This document shows, in pieces, positions 29,973 to 39,409 of a stretch of 57,155 nt of DNA. The first letter of the stretch is position 1; every line of letters begins with the position of its first letter. The position numbers were made by a program, and so were the translations under genes. The stretch comes from an uncultured Verrucomicrobiales bacterium (GTDB taxonomy: Bacteria > Verrucomicrobiota > Verrucomicrobiia > Verrucomicrobiales > Akkermansiaceae), in the NCBI GenBank assembly GCA_937930235.1, contig CALGLJ010000098.1:1-57155 (forward strand), read 5' to 3'. The notes beneath the pieces are model-generated. The model saw only the letters and a program-made list of their open reading frames with translations. It did not search any database and was not told where the DNA came from.

Positions 29973-30688
29973 AGAATTGGCGTGAACTTCTCGCTCAACG
30001 AGAATCAGCCACCCACTTCGTCGTGGAGGGACAGCTCGCGGTAGACCGGCTCCTGGCCTCAGATTACGAAACCGTCGCCGTATTCAGAATTGGTGAAAAT
30101 CTCACTCGCGAAGAAGCGTCTCACATTCTCGGCTACCAGTTTCACCGGGGAGTCCTCGCTCTTGCTAAAAAACCAGAACCCGTCCCCCTCTCTCGTTTCG
30201 GGACCGGCACGCTCGTCGCTCTCCCGGAAATAGCAGACCCTGGGAATTTAGGAGCGATTATTCGTAATGTCGCCGCCCTCGGTGGCAGCGGCGTGATTTT
30301 GGGAAAAGGCACTTCACCCTATAACGCAAAAGCCATTCGCGCTTCCGCAGGAAATCTCTTTCGAATTCCCGTCCGATGTTCACCCGATATTTTAGCAGAT
30401 CTCACTGAGCTTCAACAAACTCACATCCTCATTGGAGCTGACCTCAGCGCCCAATCACAACCATTCACCACCCTTCCCCAGCTTTCAAAACCACCCCTCC
30501 TCATTTTAGGCCCTGAAGATTTTGGGATTGATGCTACCGTTCGTTCACTCTGCCACCATTTAGCCCACCTCCCCATGGATCATGATATCGACTCGCTCAA
30601 TGTCGCCTGCTCTTCTGCCATTTTCCTCCACCTCCTCAACCAAACCCATTTCACTCCTCACCATGCGCTTCCTCCTCTTTCTCGGTAG
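29969..30688 (+). CDS. TrmH/SpoU-family RNA 2'-O-methyltransferase
   Basis: EIADPGNLGAIIRNVAALGGSGVILG...LILGPEDFGID...LPMDHDIDSLNVACSSAIFLH. Confidence 0.9.
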   Translation: MKNWRELLAQRESATHFVVEGQLAVDRLLASDYETVAVFRIGENLTREEASHILGYQFHRGVLALAKKPEPVPLSRFGTGTLVALPEIADPGNLGAIIRNVAALGGSGVILGKGTSPYNAKAIRASAGNLFRIPVRCSPDILADLTELQQTHILIGADLSAQSQPFTTLPQLSKPPLLILGPEDFGIDATVRSLCHHLAHLPMDHDIDSLNVACSSAIFLHLLNQTHFTPHHALPPLSR

Positions 30689-32381
30689 TATGCTTTCTCT
30701 GCATGCGGGCACGCTCCAGATCAAAATCCACCATCAATTTGACGGGCGTCCACTCTCTCTGAATTCGTTGCGTTACCAAGGCCAAGAGACCTTTTCTATT
30801 TCCCGTCTCAGCTACCTCCTGAGTGAGTTCTCCATCCAAAATGATGATGGAACATGGATCGATATCCCGAACCAATTTGCCTACCTCGATCTCGCGAAAA
30901 GAAGGACCAGCTTTACCCTCTCATCACTTCCTCAAGGCTCATATCAACGGCTGCGATTTTCGCTTGGCCTCCCTCAGTTGACCAATCACGCCAACCCCGC
31001 CGAGCTTCCCGCAGACCACCCCCTAAACCCAAATGTCAACCAACTGCACTGGGACTGGCAAACAGGCTATATTTTTCTCGCCCTCGAAGGTCGCTACCGC
31101 ACCGCCAAGAAAGAACTTCAAGGATACGTCTACCATCTTGCCAATGACGCCAATTTGACAAAAATTCAACAAGAGGCTCGCTTCCAAATCAAAGAGAACA
31201 CCGAGATTCAGCTCGCTTTTGAAGTTCAGAATCTCTTTCAAAAACAACGGACTGTGTCTTTCCAAACTTATGGTCATTCGTCGCATTCTCATCCAGATGA
31301 CCCCATAGCGAAAACTCTCGCCCAGAATATCGCGAACTCATTCAGCCTCCTCACGATCAACTACCCGGCGGGAACCCAGTCAGCCCAGCCGGAAAAGAAA
31401 GTTCTCCCTCTTTACCTCCCTGAAAAATTCACTCCATTTCAATTCAAAACAAATCGCCACTTCCCGCGTCCGCAACTCCCACTTGATAACCCACTTCTGA
31501 AGGAACGAGTCACTCTCGGAGAAGACCTCTTTCACGATAGCATCCTATCAATCGATGGCACCATTTCATGTGCCGCATGTCATGACTCCAATCTCGCCTT
31601 TAGCGATGAGCGAAAACTTTCAGAAGGGTTTAATGGACGACTGAGTAAACGACATTCGATGCCCCTGTTTAACTTAGCCTGGAAATCATCCTTTTTCTGG
31701 GATGGCCGTGCCGCATCGCTTCGTGAACAAGTCCTTGAGCCCATACAAGACCCTCGAGAAATGGCTGCCAATTTAAGACGCATCATTGCCCGCCTCAACC
31801 GCAGCCGGAAGTATTCCCAAGCATTTACCAAAGCATTTGGCCCCGGCCAAGTGACCTCTGAAAAACTCGCTCTCGCCCTAGAAAACTACCTCCTCACTCT
31901 CACCAGTTACGACTCAAAATTTGACCAAGCAATAGCTGGGAAAAAAAACCTCAGTGAATCAGAACAACGGGGAATGAAGCTCTTCTTCACCGAATATGAA
32001 CCACGCAATCAACAATATGGAGCGGACTGCTTTCATTGTCATGGCGGAGCGAATTTCTCCGACCATCAATTTCACAATAACGGGCTCAAACCCACTCAAG
32101 ATCTAGGGCGATTTTCCGTGACCAAAGACCCCAAAGATCGGTTTCATTTCTCAACTCCAAGCCTGAGAAATGTCGGTCTGACCCCTCCCTACATGCACGA
32201 TGGCCGCTTCGCCACTCTCGCCGAAGTGGTCGAGCACTATAGCAGTGGGATCCACCGCAGCGAAACCCTCGATCCCAATCTCGCAAAACACCCACGAGTA
32301 GGACTTCAATTCAGTGAACAGGCGAAAGCGGACCTCGTTGCCTTTCTAAAAACGCTCACCGACCCTAAATACGGCCCATAA
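30663..32381 (+). CDS. Fusion of an MbnP-like copper-protein domain with a di-heme cytochrome c peroxidase (MauG/MbnH-like)
   Basis: N-terminal 'LSYLLSEFSIQNDDG...HWDWQTGYIFLALEG' (MbnP-like); C-terminal hemes CAACH and CFHCH with the MauG/CCP scaffold; ATG 30663 overlaps the methyltransferase gene. Confidence 0.85.
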   Translation: MRFLLFLGSMLSLHAGTLQIKIHHQFDGRPLSLNSLRYQGQETFSISRLSYLLSEFSIQNDDGTWIDIPNQFAYLDLAKRRTSFTLSSLPQGSYQRLRFSLGLPQLTNHANPAELPADHPLNPNVNQLHWDWQTGYIFLALEGRYRTAKKELQGYVYHLANDANLTKIQQEARFQIKENTEIQLAFEVQNLFQKQRTVSFQTYGHSSHSHPDDPIAKTLAQNIANSFSLLTINYPAGTQSAQPEKKVLPLYLPEKFTPFQFKTNRHFPRPQLPLDNPLLKERVTLGEDLFHDSILSIDGTISCAACHDSNLAFSDERKLSEGFNGRLSKRHSMPLFNLAWKSSFFWDGRAASLREQVLEPIQDPREMAANLRRIIARLNRSRKYSQAFTKAFGPGQVTSEKLALALENYLLTLTSYDSKFDQAIAGKKNLSESEQRGMKLFFTEYEPRNQQYGADCFHCHGGANFSDHQFHNNGLKPTQDLGRFSVTKDPKDRFHFSTPSLRNVGLTPPYMHDGRFATLAEVVEHYSSGIHRSETLDPNLAKHPRVGLQFSEQAKADLVAFLKTLTDPKYGP

Positions 32382-33928: not shown

Positions 33929-36900
33929 TCAAATTTGCGCTCTAAGCTGTTCGATCCATCCAGCAAAGTCTTCTTGTCCCTTATGCCGGAGGATTGTTTC
34001 GGCGATCATCAGATCATGTGTGACAAGGTTAATTTGGCGGGGAGAGCCTGCTGTTTTAAGAACCTGAAGGTAGGATTGAGCGTGATTGTGGATATTTTCT
34101 TTTAGGCTATGATTAAACAGGGCTTCCAAAGCGTATTGCTGAGGGCGAGCGGCTCGCTCCCAAAAGAGTTCACCCATATCAATCAGGTCTTCGCCCGCGA
34201 GAGTTTTGGAAAAACTGAGAAGTTCCCGAAAGTCTTTTGAACGCTCCTCTTCGTTATCGGGATTTCGCAGAAAGATTGCGAGGAGGAGATTATTCAATGG
34301 GTAAGGAATAAACCCTTTGTCTTTTCGGGTTTGCTCGAAAGACTTACGATAATGCTCTTCCATAAGGCGCAAAGGAGCTTCACAGGATTTTGCTTCGCCG
34401 AGGGTCGCTTCTAAAAGTGCGGCATGTTTAGCAATAGAACCTCGGCAGGCGCTCCGACGCGCAGTGGGTCCGAACTGCTTTTCGAGCTTCGCTATTTGCT
34501 GGTCGCACTGCTTTAGAATCGCGCGAGACTTTTTGAGTTCGGTGGAGCCACCATCCCCCTGCCCTACCATTTTCAGGGTAAGACGCGCTCGGTTTTTGGC
34601 CTGCTTTTCGATCGCTCGGAGAGTGATCTGACTATCGCCGCTCGCTTGAGCTAGATCATAGGCTTCGATCGCTCTTTCTAACTCGTCGAGTTGGATCCAA
34701 GTGTCGCCAAGGGTCATGGCAAACTTTCCATTACTTCGCCAATCAGCAGGCAATTTTTCTAAGAACTCAATGAGACTTTCGACAACACAGGTGGTGCAGT
34801 GTCCTCGAAGAGTTTTGGCTTTCTGTCCAATATTCGCAGTGCAGACGATCGCCTCGGAGAGAGAAACAGGATCGGGAATTTTTTCCGTTTCTGATGATAC
34901 CTCATGCGAGGTGAAAACATAGGAAGGGTCACCATAACATTGATAAGCGGCCCAAGTATTTCTGCTTGGGTGCCGTTCGTGGGTCCGCTGACGCGCCCGG
35001 AAAACCGATTGTCCAAAATTGGTTCCTTTCATCATCTCAGCATAGAAACAATCAGCAAAGGTAAGAGCTGCTTGATCATCGACAGCCCAGCCCGCCGCAA
35101 TAACAGCCCGGACGCCCTGGTTGATGAGCTGCGTCGCGAGGTTTGCGGCCAATTGATAAGGCTTGGCAGGGAAATCAGCCGGACGAGCGTCGCCATCCAC
35201 ATTTCCCAGGTGACAGCAATTGATAAAGACGAATTCCGGAGTGCCCGGCATGCGCTCGATCAGAGACGGGGTAAGGAAAAGACCGTCACCAATGACCATG
35301 CCGGAAACTGGGGCGGGTGTTTCCTCGCCTGCAGTGAGATTTTTTGGGACATATTCGAAGACCCCGTGCCCTGCGAGATGGAGAATATGATGCTCACGAC
35401 TCATCAGCTCACGGATGACAGTCTGAGCGTCAGGCTTCTCGTGAAGAGACACTTCGAAAGTCGCCTTGAGATGTTTTTTCTCAAGAAGATCTCTCACCGC
35501 ACGGCCTTCTCTTTGAGCACCAAAAAGAGGCGGGAAATCTGAAGTTGGGTCAGCAATGATGAGAGCCTTCCCATTTCGACAAAGTTTAGGGCGAAGAACC
35601 AGAGGAGAACTGAGCTGTCTCACCATGGGACTGCGAAGCGCCATGGCACGATCACTTTCACCTTCGTGATATTGCAAGATTTCCCATGGGTAAGCAGCCG
35701 CCTGCTCGTCAAGGATCAGGACGAGGGGGCGATTGTCGCCCGAACTGGACTTCAAGGCTCTCGGGACGAGTAATTCGTGAAGAACGCGGCCCGTATCAGG
35801 ATCAGCTGCGGTAGACCGAGTGACATCCCGCAAGAATGGATCAACTGCTTGTCGCTCTTCAGAAGTAGTGATCATGGGAAGCCCCGCTCGATCAGAAAGA
35901 GGAAGGAAAGACATCCGGCCATCGTCAACGGCGATCCGAAGACGTTGCCAGAGAGATTGATCCAGCCCACGAGAAACGCGATAGAGTCCACCATCGCCAT
36001 AAACGAGACGTTTTTCGACCGTGATGTGTTCGTTAAAATAAGGAGAATCTTGGAGGTCCAGAAGGAAGTGTTGCGCCTCTACCGCAAGATCTTCATAAAT
36101 TTCAACAAAAGAGATCTCAGTGAGAGGGAGAGAATCGGTCTCGGGATTACTCAGAAGGAGTTCATTTGCTCGAATCGCCGCTCTCAGAACAGCAGCAATG
36201 CTGTCACTAATACTCACTCCTCCTACCCCTGCTCCTGGAATCAAGGCGCATAATTTCAAACCAGCAGTAAGACTCCCCTTCGCCTCTTCATTCGTCTCGA
36301 GAGAGTATCGTAGGAACGCTGTTTGAAGGGTTTCAGTGAGCTTCCCAGGTGACAGCTCGCCCATAACTCCGAGGCCGACCACCAGAGCTCCGGGGAACTC
36401 ACCAAGCTGATCAGAATAGCGAATCAAATCACTCGTATTGAGTCGCTCAGGATAGAGGCCGAGGCGGTATCGTTCGCTAAGGCGGCCATCAAGTCGCTGA
36501 TCAATTGCACCCTCAGATCCCTCGATGGGATCGTTGATAAAATGACCAACCAGAACGGGCTGGTCACAGAAAATGAGATTCCCGTGAGAGATGGAGACAC
36601 GTATTGTAGGTGTGACAAGCTGGCTCTGCGGATCGTCTTCAATGGAACTGCCTCCGCCCATCATGATGGATCCAAATTCGGATTCAGGTGGCAAATAGGG
36701 CACATGAGAAGGAGGAAGGTAAGTGAGTTCCTCGCTGCCTCGGCTGACCCATGCCCTATTAGGGAGGAGGCGAGTGGTTCCCTGTTCAAGAAGATCTACG
36801 ATTGCAGGAAAAGAACGAGGATGATCTGCCAAATCGCCGTGTTTAGCGGGGCTATACCAATGAGAAATTCCTTCGGGAATGCCATCGGACCAAAGAACCC

Positions 36901-39409
36901 GCCCATCGCCACGGGAACTCGCAAAGAAGTGGAGACGCTTCCACAGCCTGCCCTTCACTCGATAATCACATGGGGTCTTTCGAGCCTGCCCAGCGACGTA
37001 GAGGGTAATCTCAGGGTCGAGAGAAACGCTTTCAAGTGTCTTCCAAGTCTTACGAGCTTTTCGTAAAAGGGTCTTGGTAGGAGCCTTCCACTTCCGTCCC
37101 ATCACGGAAGAGAACTTGTTCCAGAGATCAGCCTCGAAGGCTCGCTCATCATGAGAAAGAGGAAGAAGCTCCAATACACCCGGGAATTTCCGAAGAATAT
37201 CAAGGTAGTCGTTTTCGCTCATGCTGAGGTCGAGCAGGGACAGAAGGTTAATCAACGAATCCTGACCAACGAGAAGCCGGAGGATCGAATGAGAACCTTT
37301 ATTCGGAGTGCCTAACATGATGAGGCGGGCTCCTTTACGGGCTGAAAATTCTTGCCAAGTTTCATGATGCTCAGCCATGACCGCTCGACAGACCAAACCT
37401 CCCATCGAGTGAGCAACGATACGAACGGGACCGGTGGTTTGTTGTAACTGTCTCTTCATCTCGTCAGCCAATTGATCTCCCGCGTCCAGAATGGACTTTC
37501 TCCAATCGTAGGAAAATGGAACGACCTTGTGGCTTTCTTTGAGATATTCGATCAACCGCTGATAAGAGTCTTTGTGCGGTCCATCTGGAGAAATGGTATG
37601 AGGACTGTTAATATCAAGTTTTCGAAATGCCCCACGCATCAGATCCGATTTATCGACCCAAACACGATCATCATCCACTCGGAGGTTAGACCCGGAAATT
37701 CCCGGAACCACAATGACACAAGGACTATCTGGCTTGATCTCGATACCCCGGCTCCTTTTCAGAGCCTTGGTATTGCGAGGAAAATATTGGAAACCACTTG
37801 GCTTATCCTCACCAGCGACAATTAGGGCACGGATCCCATCTCGAACTTTTTGATCCGCGAAATAATTGGTATGCATGACATTCCGATTAGGAATCATGGT
37901 GGGAACCAATTCATCCCGATAGACGCCACCATCCATCGAGGCAAAATTGACAACGAGATCATTCGGTCCTTTATAGAAGAGATCGACGAGCCAATCGTAA
38001 AAGCGGTGTTTATTGGTCGGCTCATAGTCCGAAGCAATGACTGCGAGGTGGGCTGAAGAACTCAGATCAAGACCATTTAGGAACCTCTGATTCAAGAGCT
38101 GAATCTGCGGCGAGCGAGGCATCTGGGCTTCCAAACCAGGGAAAGCTTCAGGATCAGTTCGATCCTTCACCGCCGCAATGAGAAGTGTTTTGACTGCGCT
38201 ATAAATCGGACTCCCAAAGAACCCGGGAATGAGACCGATCGCGTGAAGGACGATATTGAGAGTCACATCCAGACGCCCACTGGCGAGCGTTGTCCCCCTC
38301 GCTGGACAGGCGACTCGCACGAAGCGTTCGATCACTAAGTTTTTCTCCCGAAGTTCATGATCGAGAGACTGAAGCTCTTTTAGATGTTGTTCATAAATAT
38401 TATCTGCTGCACCACGTGAGGTGAGCCAATCAAAAGCTCTTTCGATGATATTACCGTCAACATCCTGACCTGAAAAGAGAGAGAGTTCTTCCGGTGAGAA
38501 TACTTTGCCCTCATGACGAGTGCTTTGACCTCGCGCGAGGAACTCGCCCACCAGTCCTCCTCGAGAATGAGTGATGAGATGAAGCCTAGCTCCAGCGGGG
38601 AGGCTGTGACAGAGAGCCCGCGCATTTTCAATCGGACTCTCAGTGAGAGTCCGGTGATCATAGGCATAGATTTGTGAGCCAAATTTCGAAGTCAGTTCTT
38701 TCCAGAAGCCATCAGTATCATCAGTCAGAAGCTCTGAAAATCCGCCTGCAGTGGAGCTAAAAGTCCCATGAATAAAGACGAGGATGGGTTGAGAAATATC
38801 AATCTCGCTCACAGGCACAGGCTGAAAGTGAGCCTCCTTCCACTGCTCTGTCTTTTTGGTCTCGATCAGTTGTTCCCGAATATCTGAGGCATAGAAGAGT
38901 CCGCCATCTTGAATGATCCCCTTTTCAATTTTACGAGCAAGGGCTCGAATCGCCTCTTGACCGACTCGTGAGACAATTTCTCCTTCAAATTTTTCCTTTA
39001 AGTTGAAGATATCTAGCTTCTTAAGAAGGCGCGAAAACAAGCCTCTCTCTCCCTCCAGACTGGGGAGATCTGAGGTGATGGTAACGAGATCTTCATCATC
39101 AGAGCCACCACGATTTTCAGATTGCCCGGCATAGATTTCCGACAAACTTTCAGGTGTTAGAAAAAGCTCGGTCCCATCACTGAGTTCAAGACGAGCAACA
39201 TCCCCTTCTTGCATCTCGAAACGATGCCCGGGAGATTCATCAGATCGATCGGCTTGGGGACTAAGGTCAATTGAAGCCCCCGAACTCATATCGAGTTTGA
39301 AAAAACCATCTAGGCCCAGGTCCTGATTCAGCTCCTTCTCTCGGTTTATTTTAGAATTCAGACGACCTCGAACAAGGAAACATTTAGAAGGTGTGGAAGT
39401 CTCAGACAT
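33929..39409 (-). CDS. 1826-aa multidomain protein: alpha/beta hydrolase, LCAT/PGAP1-like lipase domain, M17-N-terminal-like region (tentative), CHAT caspase-like protease, TPR-like C-terminus
   Basis: First hydrolase: [12 protein letters not shown] / [13 protein letters not shown]; second: [12 protein letters not shown] / [29 protein letters not shown] / [11 protein letters not shown] / [43 protein letters not shown]. Confidence 0.85.
   Translation of the reverse strand: [1826 protein letters not shown]

Follow-up and report, generated by a model that had tools for sequence, protein, structure and literature searches.

The window analysed here, a stretch of 57,155 nucleotides from an uncultured Verrucomicrobiales bacterium, carries on its reverse strand one uninterrupted open reading frame, a whole gene encoding a protein of 1826 aa (Table 1). 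A sequence-only reading of this DNA had described it as a single protein joining two alpha/beta-hydrolases to a CHAT caspase-like protease and a TPR-like tail. The frame is exact and intact, and both hydrolases and the protease matched Pfam families above the curated cut-offs: DUF7379 (residues 210-300 and further stretches, 123 bits against a cut-off of 33), LCAT (PF02450; residues 626-767, 2.2e-9) and CHAT (PF12770; 4.9e-27). The motifs quoted in that reading were all found at their places, namely HGTFSST (residues 214-220) and HSRGG (281-285) in hydrolase 1, PGISGSN (569-575) and AHSMGG (666-671) in hydrolase 2, and HLAGHG (1344-1349) and FINCCHLG (1395-1402) in CHAT. An NCBIfam scan of the protein gave no match above a cut-off, and PADLOC returned a weak match solely to the CHAT part of its SAVED_CHAT model. 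A membrane-anchored protein was considered and rejected, the top hydropathy windows being about 1.6 and lying inside hydrolase 1.

Table 1. Features of the lipase-CHAT gene in the window and of one homologous locus. Positions refer to the window unless a locus is named.
Feature	Position	Strand	Remarks
Whole gene	33929..39409	-	Two hydrolases, M17-N/macro-like domain, CHAT, TPR-S-type tail; Pfam, 78-homolog alignment
N-terminal region, residues 1-200	38810..39409	-	Little conservation; not assigned to a family; model confidence low to medium
Alpha/beta-hydrolase 1, DUF7379, residues ~205-520	37850..38797	-	PF24096, 1.4e-35; putative triad Ser282/Asp484/His513
Alpha/beta-hydrolase 2, LCAT/LPLA2-like, residues ~563-870	36800..37723	-	Pfam LCAT, PDB profile, Foldseek
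Variable linker between lipase half and sensor-protease half, residues ~905-937	36599..36697	-	Poor conservation
M17-N/macro-like domain, predicted ligand-binding, residues ~936-1140	35990..36604	-	Peptidase_M17_N in homologs, Foldseek
CHAT protease domain, residues 1206-1494	34928..35794	-	Pfam CHAT, Foldseek, His1348/Cys1399
All-helical tail, TPR-S type, residues ~1517-1826	33932..34861	-	TPR-S in homologs, helical model
Ser282	38564-38566	-	Hydrolase 1 nucleophile; 78/78 homologs
Asp484	37958-37960	-	Hydrolase 1 acid, putative (from invariance); 78/78
His513	37871-37873	-	Hydrolase 1 His, putative (from invariance); 78/78
Ser668	37406-37408	-	Hydrolase 2 nucleophile; 76/78
Asp835	36905-36907	-	Hydrolase 2 acid, putative; 78/78
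His857	36839-36841	-	Hydrolase 2 His, putative; 78/78
His1348	35366-35368	-	CHAT dyad; 78/78
Cys1399	35213-35215	-	CHAT dyad, putative nucleophile; 78/78
Two TIR-nSTAND1-WD40 proteins flanking a CHAT-TPR-S gene	L025 6978-10946 and 16447-20868		Rhizobium leguminosarum plasmid

To follow conservation, 78 proteins of nearly full length were aligned. S282, R283, G284, G285, D484, H513, D635, W636, R637, H667, D835, H857, H1348, N1397 and C1399 are invariant in all of them; S668 (76/78) and H214 (77/78) are nearly so. Since the homologs were collected with the CHAT peptide patterns [VA]F[LIV]NCCHL and NTW[GA]AYQ[CA], the conservation of C1398/C1399 is partly ascertained, while that of the hydrolase residues is unaffected. 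We infer that D484/H513 and D835/H857 complete the triads of the first and the second hydrolase, respectively, and that C1399 rather than C1398 is the CHAT nucleophile. As S282/D484/H513, S668/D835/H857 and H1348/C1399 are essentially invariant, all three enzymes are under purifying selection, and the decay of catalytic residues among homologs that had been named as a sign against the proposal did not appear. With a profile match above the cut-off and a His-Cys dyad the protease belongs to CHAT, with a match and a Ser-Asp-His triad hydrolase 2 belongs by sequence to the LCAT/LPLA2-type lipases, and hydrolase 1 is assigned to DUF7379 by its profile. The layout is not due to chance, because domain order and catalytic residues are common to 78 homologs of about equal length; this shared layout also led us to reject a fusion or assembly artefact.

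AlphaFold models were made for the two halves of the protein from alignments of 45-46 homologs, with a mean pLDDT of 83 and pTM of 0.64 for residues 60-925, and 85 and 0.81 for residues 926-1826. The expected hydrolase and CHAT folds were recovered, with both nucleophilic serines (S282, S668) modelled at strand-turn-helix elbows. In Foldseek the lipase half was closest to lysosomal phospholipase A2 (LPLA2; 4x92, 8.6e-9) and also matched LCAT, in agreement with a PDB profile search (LPLA2, 7e-8). For the protease half, the SAVED-CHAT filament 8tl0 came first; next were macro-fold proteins together with the leucyl aminopeptidase (PepA) N-domain, and after these LGN-type TPRs, at modest E-values of about 1e-4 to 1e-3. 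Compared with natural macro domains, the middle domain reached a TM (target) of ~0.65 at an E-value of only ~3e-3; its VGLG and GTG-type glycine loops are conserved. DUF7379 was matched by all 46 of the N-terminal halves scanned and so was LCAT, and 45 C-terminal halves contained CHAT (45), TPR-S (PF20308; 39), Peptidase_C14 (25) and Peptidase_M17_N (10, the best at 2.1e-8). The region before CHAT, earlier suspected of a leucyl-aminopeptidase N-terminal-like fold, is thus supported by profile and by structure as an N-domain-like fold only, no catalytic M17 match being found by Pfam in the window protein or the 45 homologs. The TPR-like tail is likewise supported by the homologs and by an all-helical model; the window protein's own tail has no Pfam TPR or TPR-S match. 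The linker around residues 905-937 is poorly conserved among homologs, and its edges have low model confidence in both halves, as would also be expected from the chain being cut there; we regard it as a candidate cleavage hinge.

A single-sequence scan of genome contigs found no relatives, and an alignment-based one did. By tblastn against plasmids, co-linear full-length relatives with 29-33% identity were found in Azotobacter, Ensifer, Paracoccus and Burkholderia, and a profile-guided scan in which each species was represented by a single genome gave at least 569 relatives. The 80 loci examined from these belong to Pseudomonadota, Desulfuromonadales and other deltaproteobacterial lineages, Nitrospirales, Bacteroidota, Anaerolineales, Acidobacteriota, Planctomycetota and others. 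Near home the distribution is sporadic: the 28 genomes of the genus contain no full copy besides the window gene, and a sample of 394 genomes from across the phylum gave, at a strict E limit, a single one with the double-hydrolase part. In a FastTree phylogeny the window protein groups with four proteins from gammaproteobacterial MAGs (support 1.0), two of them tubeworm endosymbionts. Because the gene is a singleton in its genus and groups with gammaproteobacterial proteins, it was probably acquired by horizontal transfer.

In genomes related to that of the window, CHAT is found with LCAT and M17-N (L150, 1080 aa), with LCAT and no detected M17-N (L144, L145), with DUF7379 but without LCAT (L146, L148), and with Lipase_3 and SLOG cluster 2 (L147 5816-10513 (-), 1566 aa), the last being a third lipase-sensor-CHAT arrangement. 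Judged by their domain matches, sister proteins thus exchange both the predicted lipase (DUF7379, LCAT, Lipase_3) and the sensor-like middle domain around an unchanging CHAT. SLOG has been proposed to sense nucleotide ligands in conflict systems, and, as it occupies the position of the M17-N/macro-like domain, this exchange suggests that the latter may be a ligand sensor as well.

The window copy stands alone. It is bordered on one flank by RuvC and an ORF without annotation; the opposite flank has a small ORF and then a housekeeping run (YfiO/TPR protein, LptE-like, TP_methylase, RecQ-like helicase), a setting that counts against an immune reading. The idea that the gene had entered cleanly at a conserved ruvC site was unsupported: a congener assembled in two contigs has ~0.8 Mb between ruvC and the YfiO/TPR gene, and in the other congeners listed the two genes do not share a contig. 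Elsewhere in the window, a 599-aa ORF (30582-32381 (+)) fuses an MbnP domain to a MauG-type di-haem peroxidase domain; in copper handling, MbnP and MauG are usually regarded as two distinct proteins that act as partners. The window's own genome contains a second CHAT protein (G000 contig C11:8728-9453, open frame of 748 aa). It gave no TIR_2 match, and no C14 match besides the CHAT described here, and these absences are provisional because the genome is 87% complete. The protein had been called autonomous, which fits the window copy, with neither partner found in that genome, but not the many homologs that have partner genes.

Ordinary flanking genes and a genuine LCAT/LPLA2-like triad are what one would expect if the protein were a non-immune housekeeping or stress enzyme for envelope lipid remodelling or turnover, the protease domain setting its amount. 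We consider this improbable in view of the sporadic distribution, the plasmid copies and the TIR and caspase neighbours of the homologs. The neighbours, described below, also speak against the objection, raised beforehand, that homologs might always sit in a metabolic context.

All ORFs of the homologous loci were clustered, and one recurrent companion emerged, a C14 caspase gene of 264-433 aa that, in ~15 of 80 loci, shares the strand of the lipase-CHAT gene and lies 7-296 bp upstream of it, an operon-like arrangement. In ~12 of 80 loci a TIR gene lies next to the lipase-CHAT gene, always on the same strand, and caspase, CHAT gene and TIR occur together in a few (L075, L077). Most of the 80 loci have neither an adjacent caspase nor a TIR gene, which counts against the immune reading. 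Within the same loci, C14 matches were found in 13/100 ORFs within 400 bp against 0/100 at ≥4 kb (Fisher p=1.6e-4), and TIR_2 matches in 13/100 against 2/100 (Fisher p=0.005), p values that ignore shared ancestry, many of the caspase loci being betaproteobacterial. Apart from caspase and TIR, PADLOC on near versus far ORFs revealed no broad defence-island enrichment: the near set contained mainly the caspase and two ThsB-like TIRs, and the far set scattered other systems. The defence-island enrichment that the sequence-only reading proposed to look for was thus seen for the immediate C14 and TIR neighbours and not for a wider island.

Individual loci add to this picture. An Azotobacter plasmid copy adjoins a type I restriction operon. 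A Rhizobium homolog has M17-N (weak), CHAT and TPR-S and no lipases, and lies between two TIR-nSTAND1-WD40 genes (Table 1). In Azotobacter chroococcum DSM 2286 (L072) a single locus holds two ORFs of the lipase-CHAT family, with a C14 caspase by one and a TIR by the other. Proteins of ~660 aa with TPR-S (PF20308) recur near 17 homologous loci (e.g. L036 7574-9607 (-)); by eye, their N-terminus is TIR-like or deoxyribosyltransferase-like and their end Rossmann-like. A small gene directly follows the lipase-CHAT gene in L071 (14938-15717 (+)), where it matches Peptidase_M15_3, and similar ones are present in L061, L078, L092, L094 and L100; in most of these loci the small gene overlaps the lipase-CHAT gene. 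In Paracoccus (L019 8544-11828, L021 8279-11524) a ~1090-aa protein with membrane-spanning stretches, as seen by eye, is encoded directly upstream. In L019 it carries a domain of the extracellular solute-binding type, and it is a possible envelope sensor partner. A shared upstream membrane partner was rejected, the Paracoccus (1094 aa) and L145 (1151 aa) genes being mutually unrelated and having no counterpart in the window.

The conserved upstream C14 gene invites the view that CHAT acts mainly in trans on partners such as this caspase or regulators, the lipases being separately controlled and placed on the same chain for co-delivery. The proteolytic cascade by which SAVED-CHAT systems work (PMC11229360) lends it a model. 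We hold it to be rather unlikely, since most loci, the window included, have no separate C14 gene nearby and a search of the window's 87%-complete genome gave none.

The TIR neighbours allow a different scheme, in which an ADP-ribose-type messenger made by the adjacent TIR would bind the macro-like domain and activate CHAT, which would then act on the lipases and the caspase, in a Thoeris-like pathway with a new effector. The same-strand TIR genes and the macro-like fold speak for it, and so does precedent: as summarised in PMC12847820, the macro-domain effectors of type II Thoeris are acted on by His-ADPR from a TIR enzyme, and in type IV it is N7-cADPR that switches on a caspase-like protease. 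If true, it would be a new immune pathway in which one protein combines caspase-like and lipase-based cell death. We find it unlikely, as most loci lack a TIR gene, no TIR domain was found in the window's 87%-complete genome, and some of the TIRs beside homologs carry fusions to other domains and may work on their own. Furthermore, ADP-ribose binding is not known for the M17-N domains of aminopeptidases.

From these results a hypothesis regarding the function may be put forward, to which we assign a probability of about one half: the protein is a phospholipase gated by a protease on the same chain, of the kind seen in bacterial conflict or abortive infection. The TPR-S tail, the macro-like domain or both would sense an infection- or stress-derived ligand or protein, and this would activate the CHAT protease, probably with oligomerisation. 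CHAT would then relieve inhibition of the two lipases at the N-terminus, and the simplest way would be a cut in cis within the variable linker; both the autoinhibition and the cleavage are conjecture. In homologs with an upstream C14 gene, CHAT might also activate that caspase, which would form a second arm. Once freed, the LCAT/LPLA2-like and DUF7379 hydrolases would attack the cell's own membrane lipids, and the cell would be halted or killed, perhaps in response to phage. Because the layout recurs in scores of distant bacteria, often beside caspase or TIR genes, it suggests a built-in switch for cell death or defence that is so far undescribed. The immune or signalling role proposed from the sequence is favoured by the C14 and TIR neighbours, by the module exchange that includes SLOG, and by sporadic plasmid and horizontal spread, but the neighbours that PADLOC recognises are mainly caspase and TIR. 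If the hypothesis is true, proteolytic and membrane-lipid cell death are coupled in one molecule, in a family that is found in hundreds of bacterial genomes, has well-defined residues for mutation, and offers a testable function both for DUF7379 and for the M17-N/macro-like domains of proteins other than aminopeptidases.

In the literature searched, which left most subscription papers outside it, neither a named lipase-CHAT family nor this fused architecture was found, and PADLOC has no model for a lipase-lipase-sensor-CHAT architecture. The building blocks are familiar. Hydrolase 1 matches DUF7379 with a full putative triad, but it is fused here to LCAT-like and CHAT modules, and the Pfam entry gives no function. 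Like LPLA2/LCAT, hydrolase 2 has the oxyanion motif PGxxGS, S668, the GDGxV acid and a late His, whereas it is bacterial and one module of a five-part protein, a predicted lipase by sequence and model. SAVED-CHAT (type III CRISPR/CBASS) similarly combines CHAT with an attached sensor and provides the best structural match of the protease half, and the C14 partner gene at ~15 homologous loci recalls its cascade. Membership was rejected, however: Pfam found no SAVED domain in the window protein, which has macro-like and TPR-S parts instead, as well as two lipases in the same chain, no Cas10 or CD-NTase was seen, and the PADLOC match was weak and confined to CHAT. The Craspase TPR-CHAT (type III-E CRISPR) was rejected too, there being no Cas gene among ten neighbouring genes. 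With Thoeris types II and IV the family shares TIR genes beside some homologs, and macro-like and caspase-superfamily domains, here in one protein; it differs in its putative lipase effectors, and membership was rejected for the window, where no TIR_2 match was found in the 87%-complete genome, adjacent TIR genes being confined to ~12 of 80 homologous loci. VMAP/MoxR-vWA ternary conflict systems also pair a caspase-superfamily domain with an alpha/beta-hydrolase, and Kaur et al. 2020 (PMC7159879) noted that VMAP caspase-superfamily domains are always accompanied by an alpha/beta-hydrolase gene and proposed that the two act jointly. MoxR, vWA and VMAP components are absent from the ten neighbouring genes, so membership was rejected here as well. 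The pairing of caspase and hydrolase is therefore already known from conflict systems; there the hydrolase is a neighbouring gene, whereas here two hydrolases and the protease form one polypeptide.
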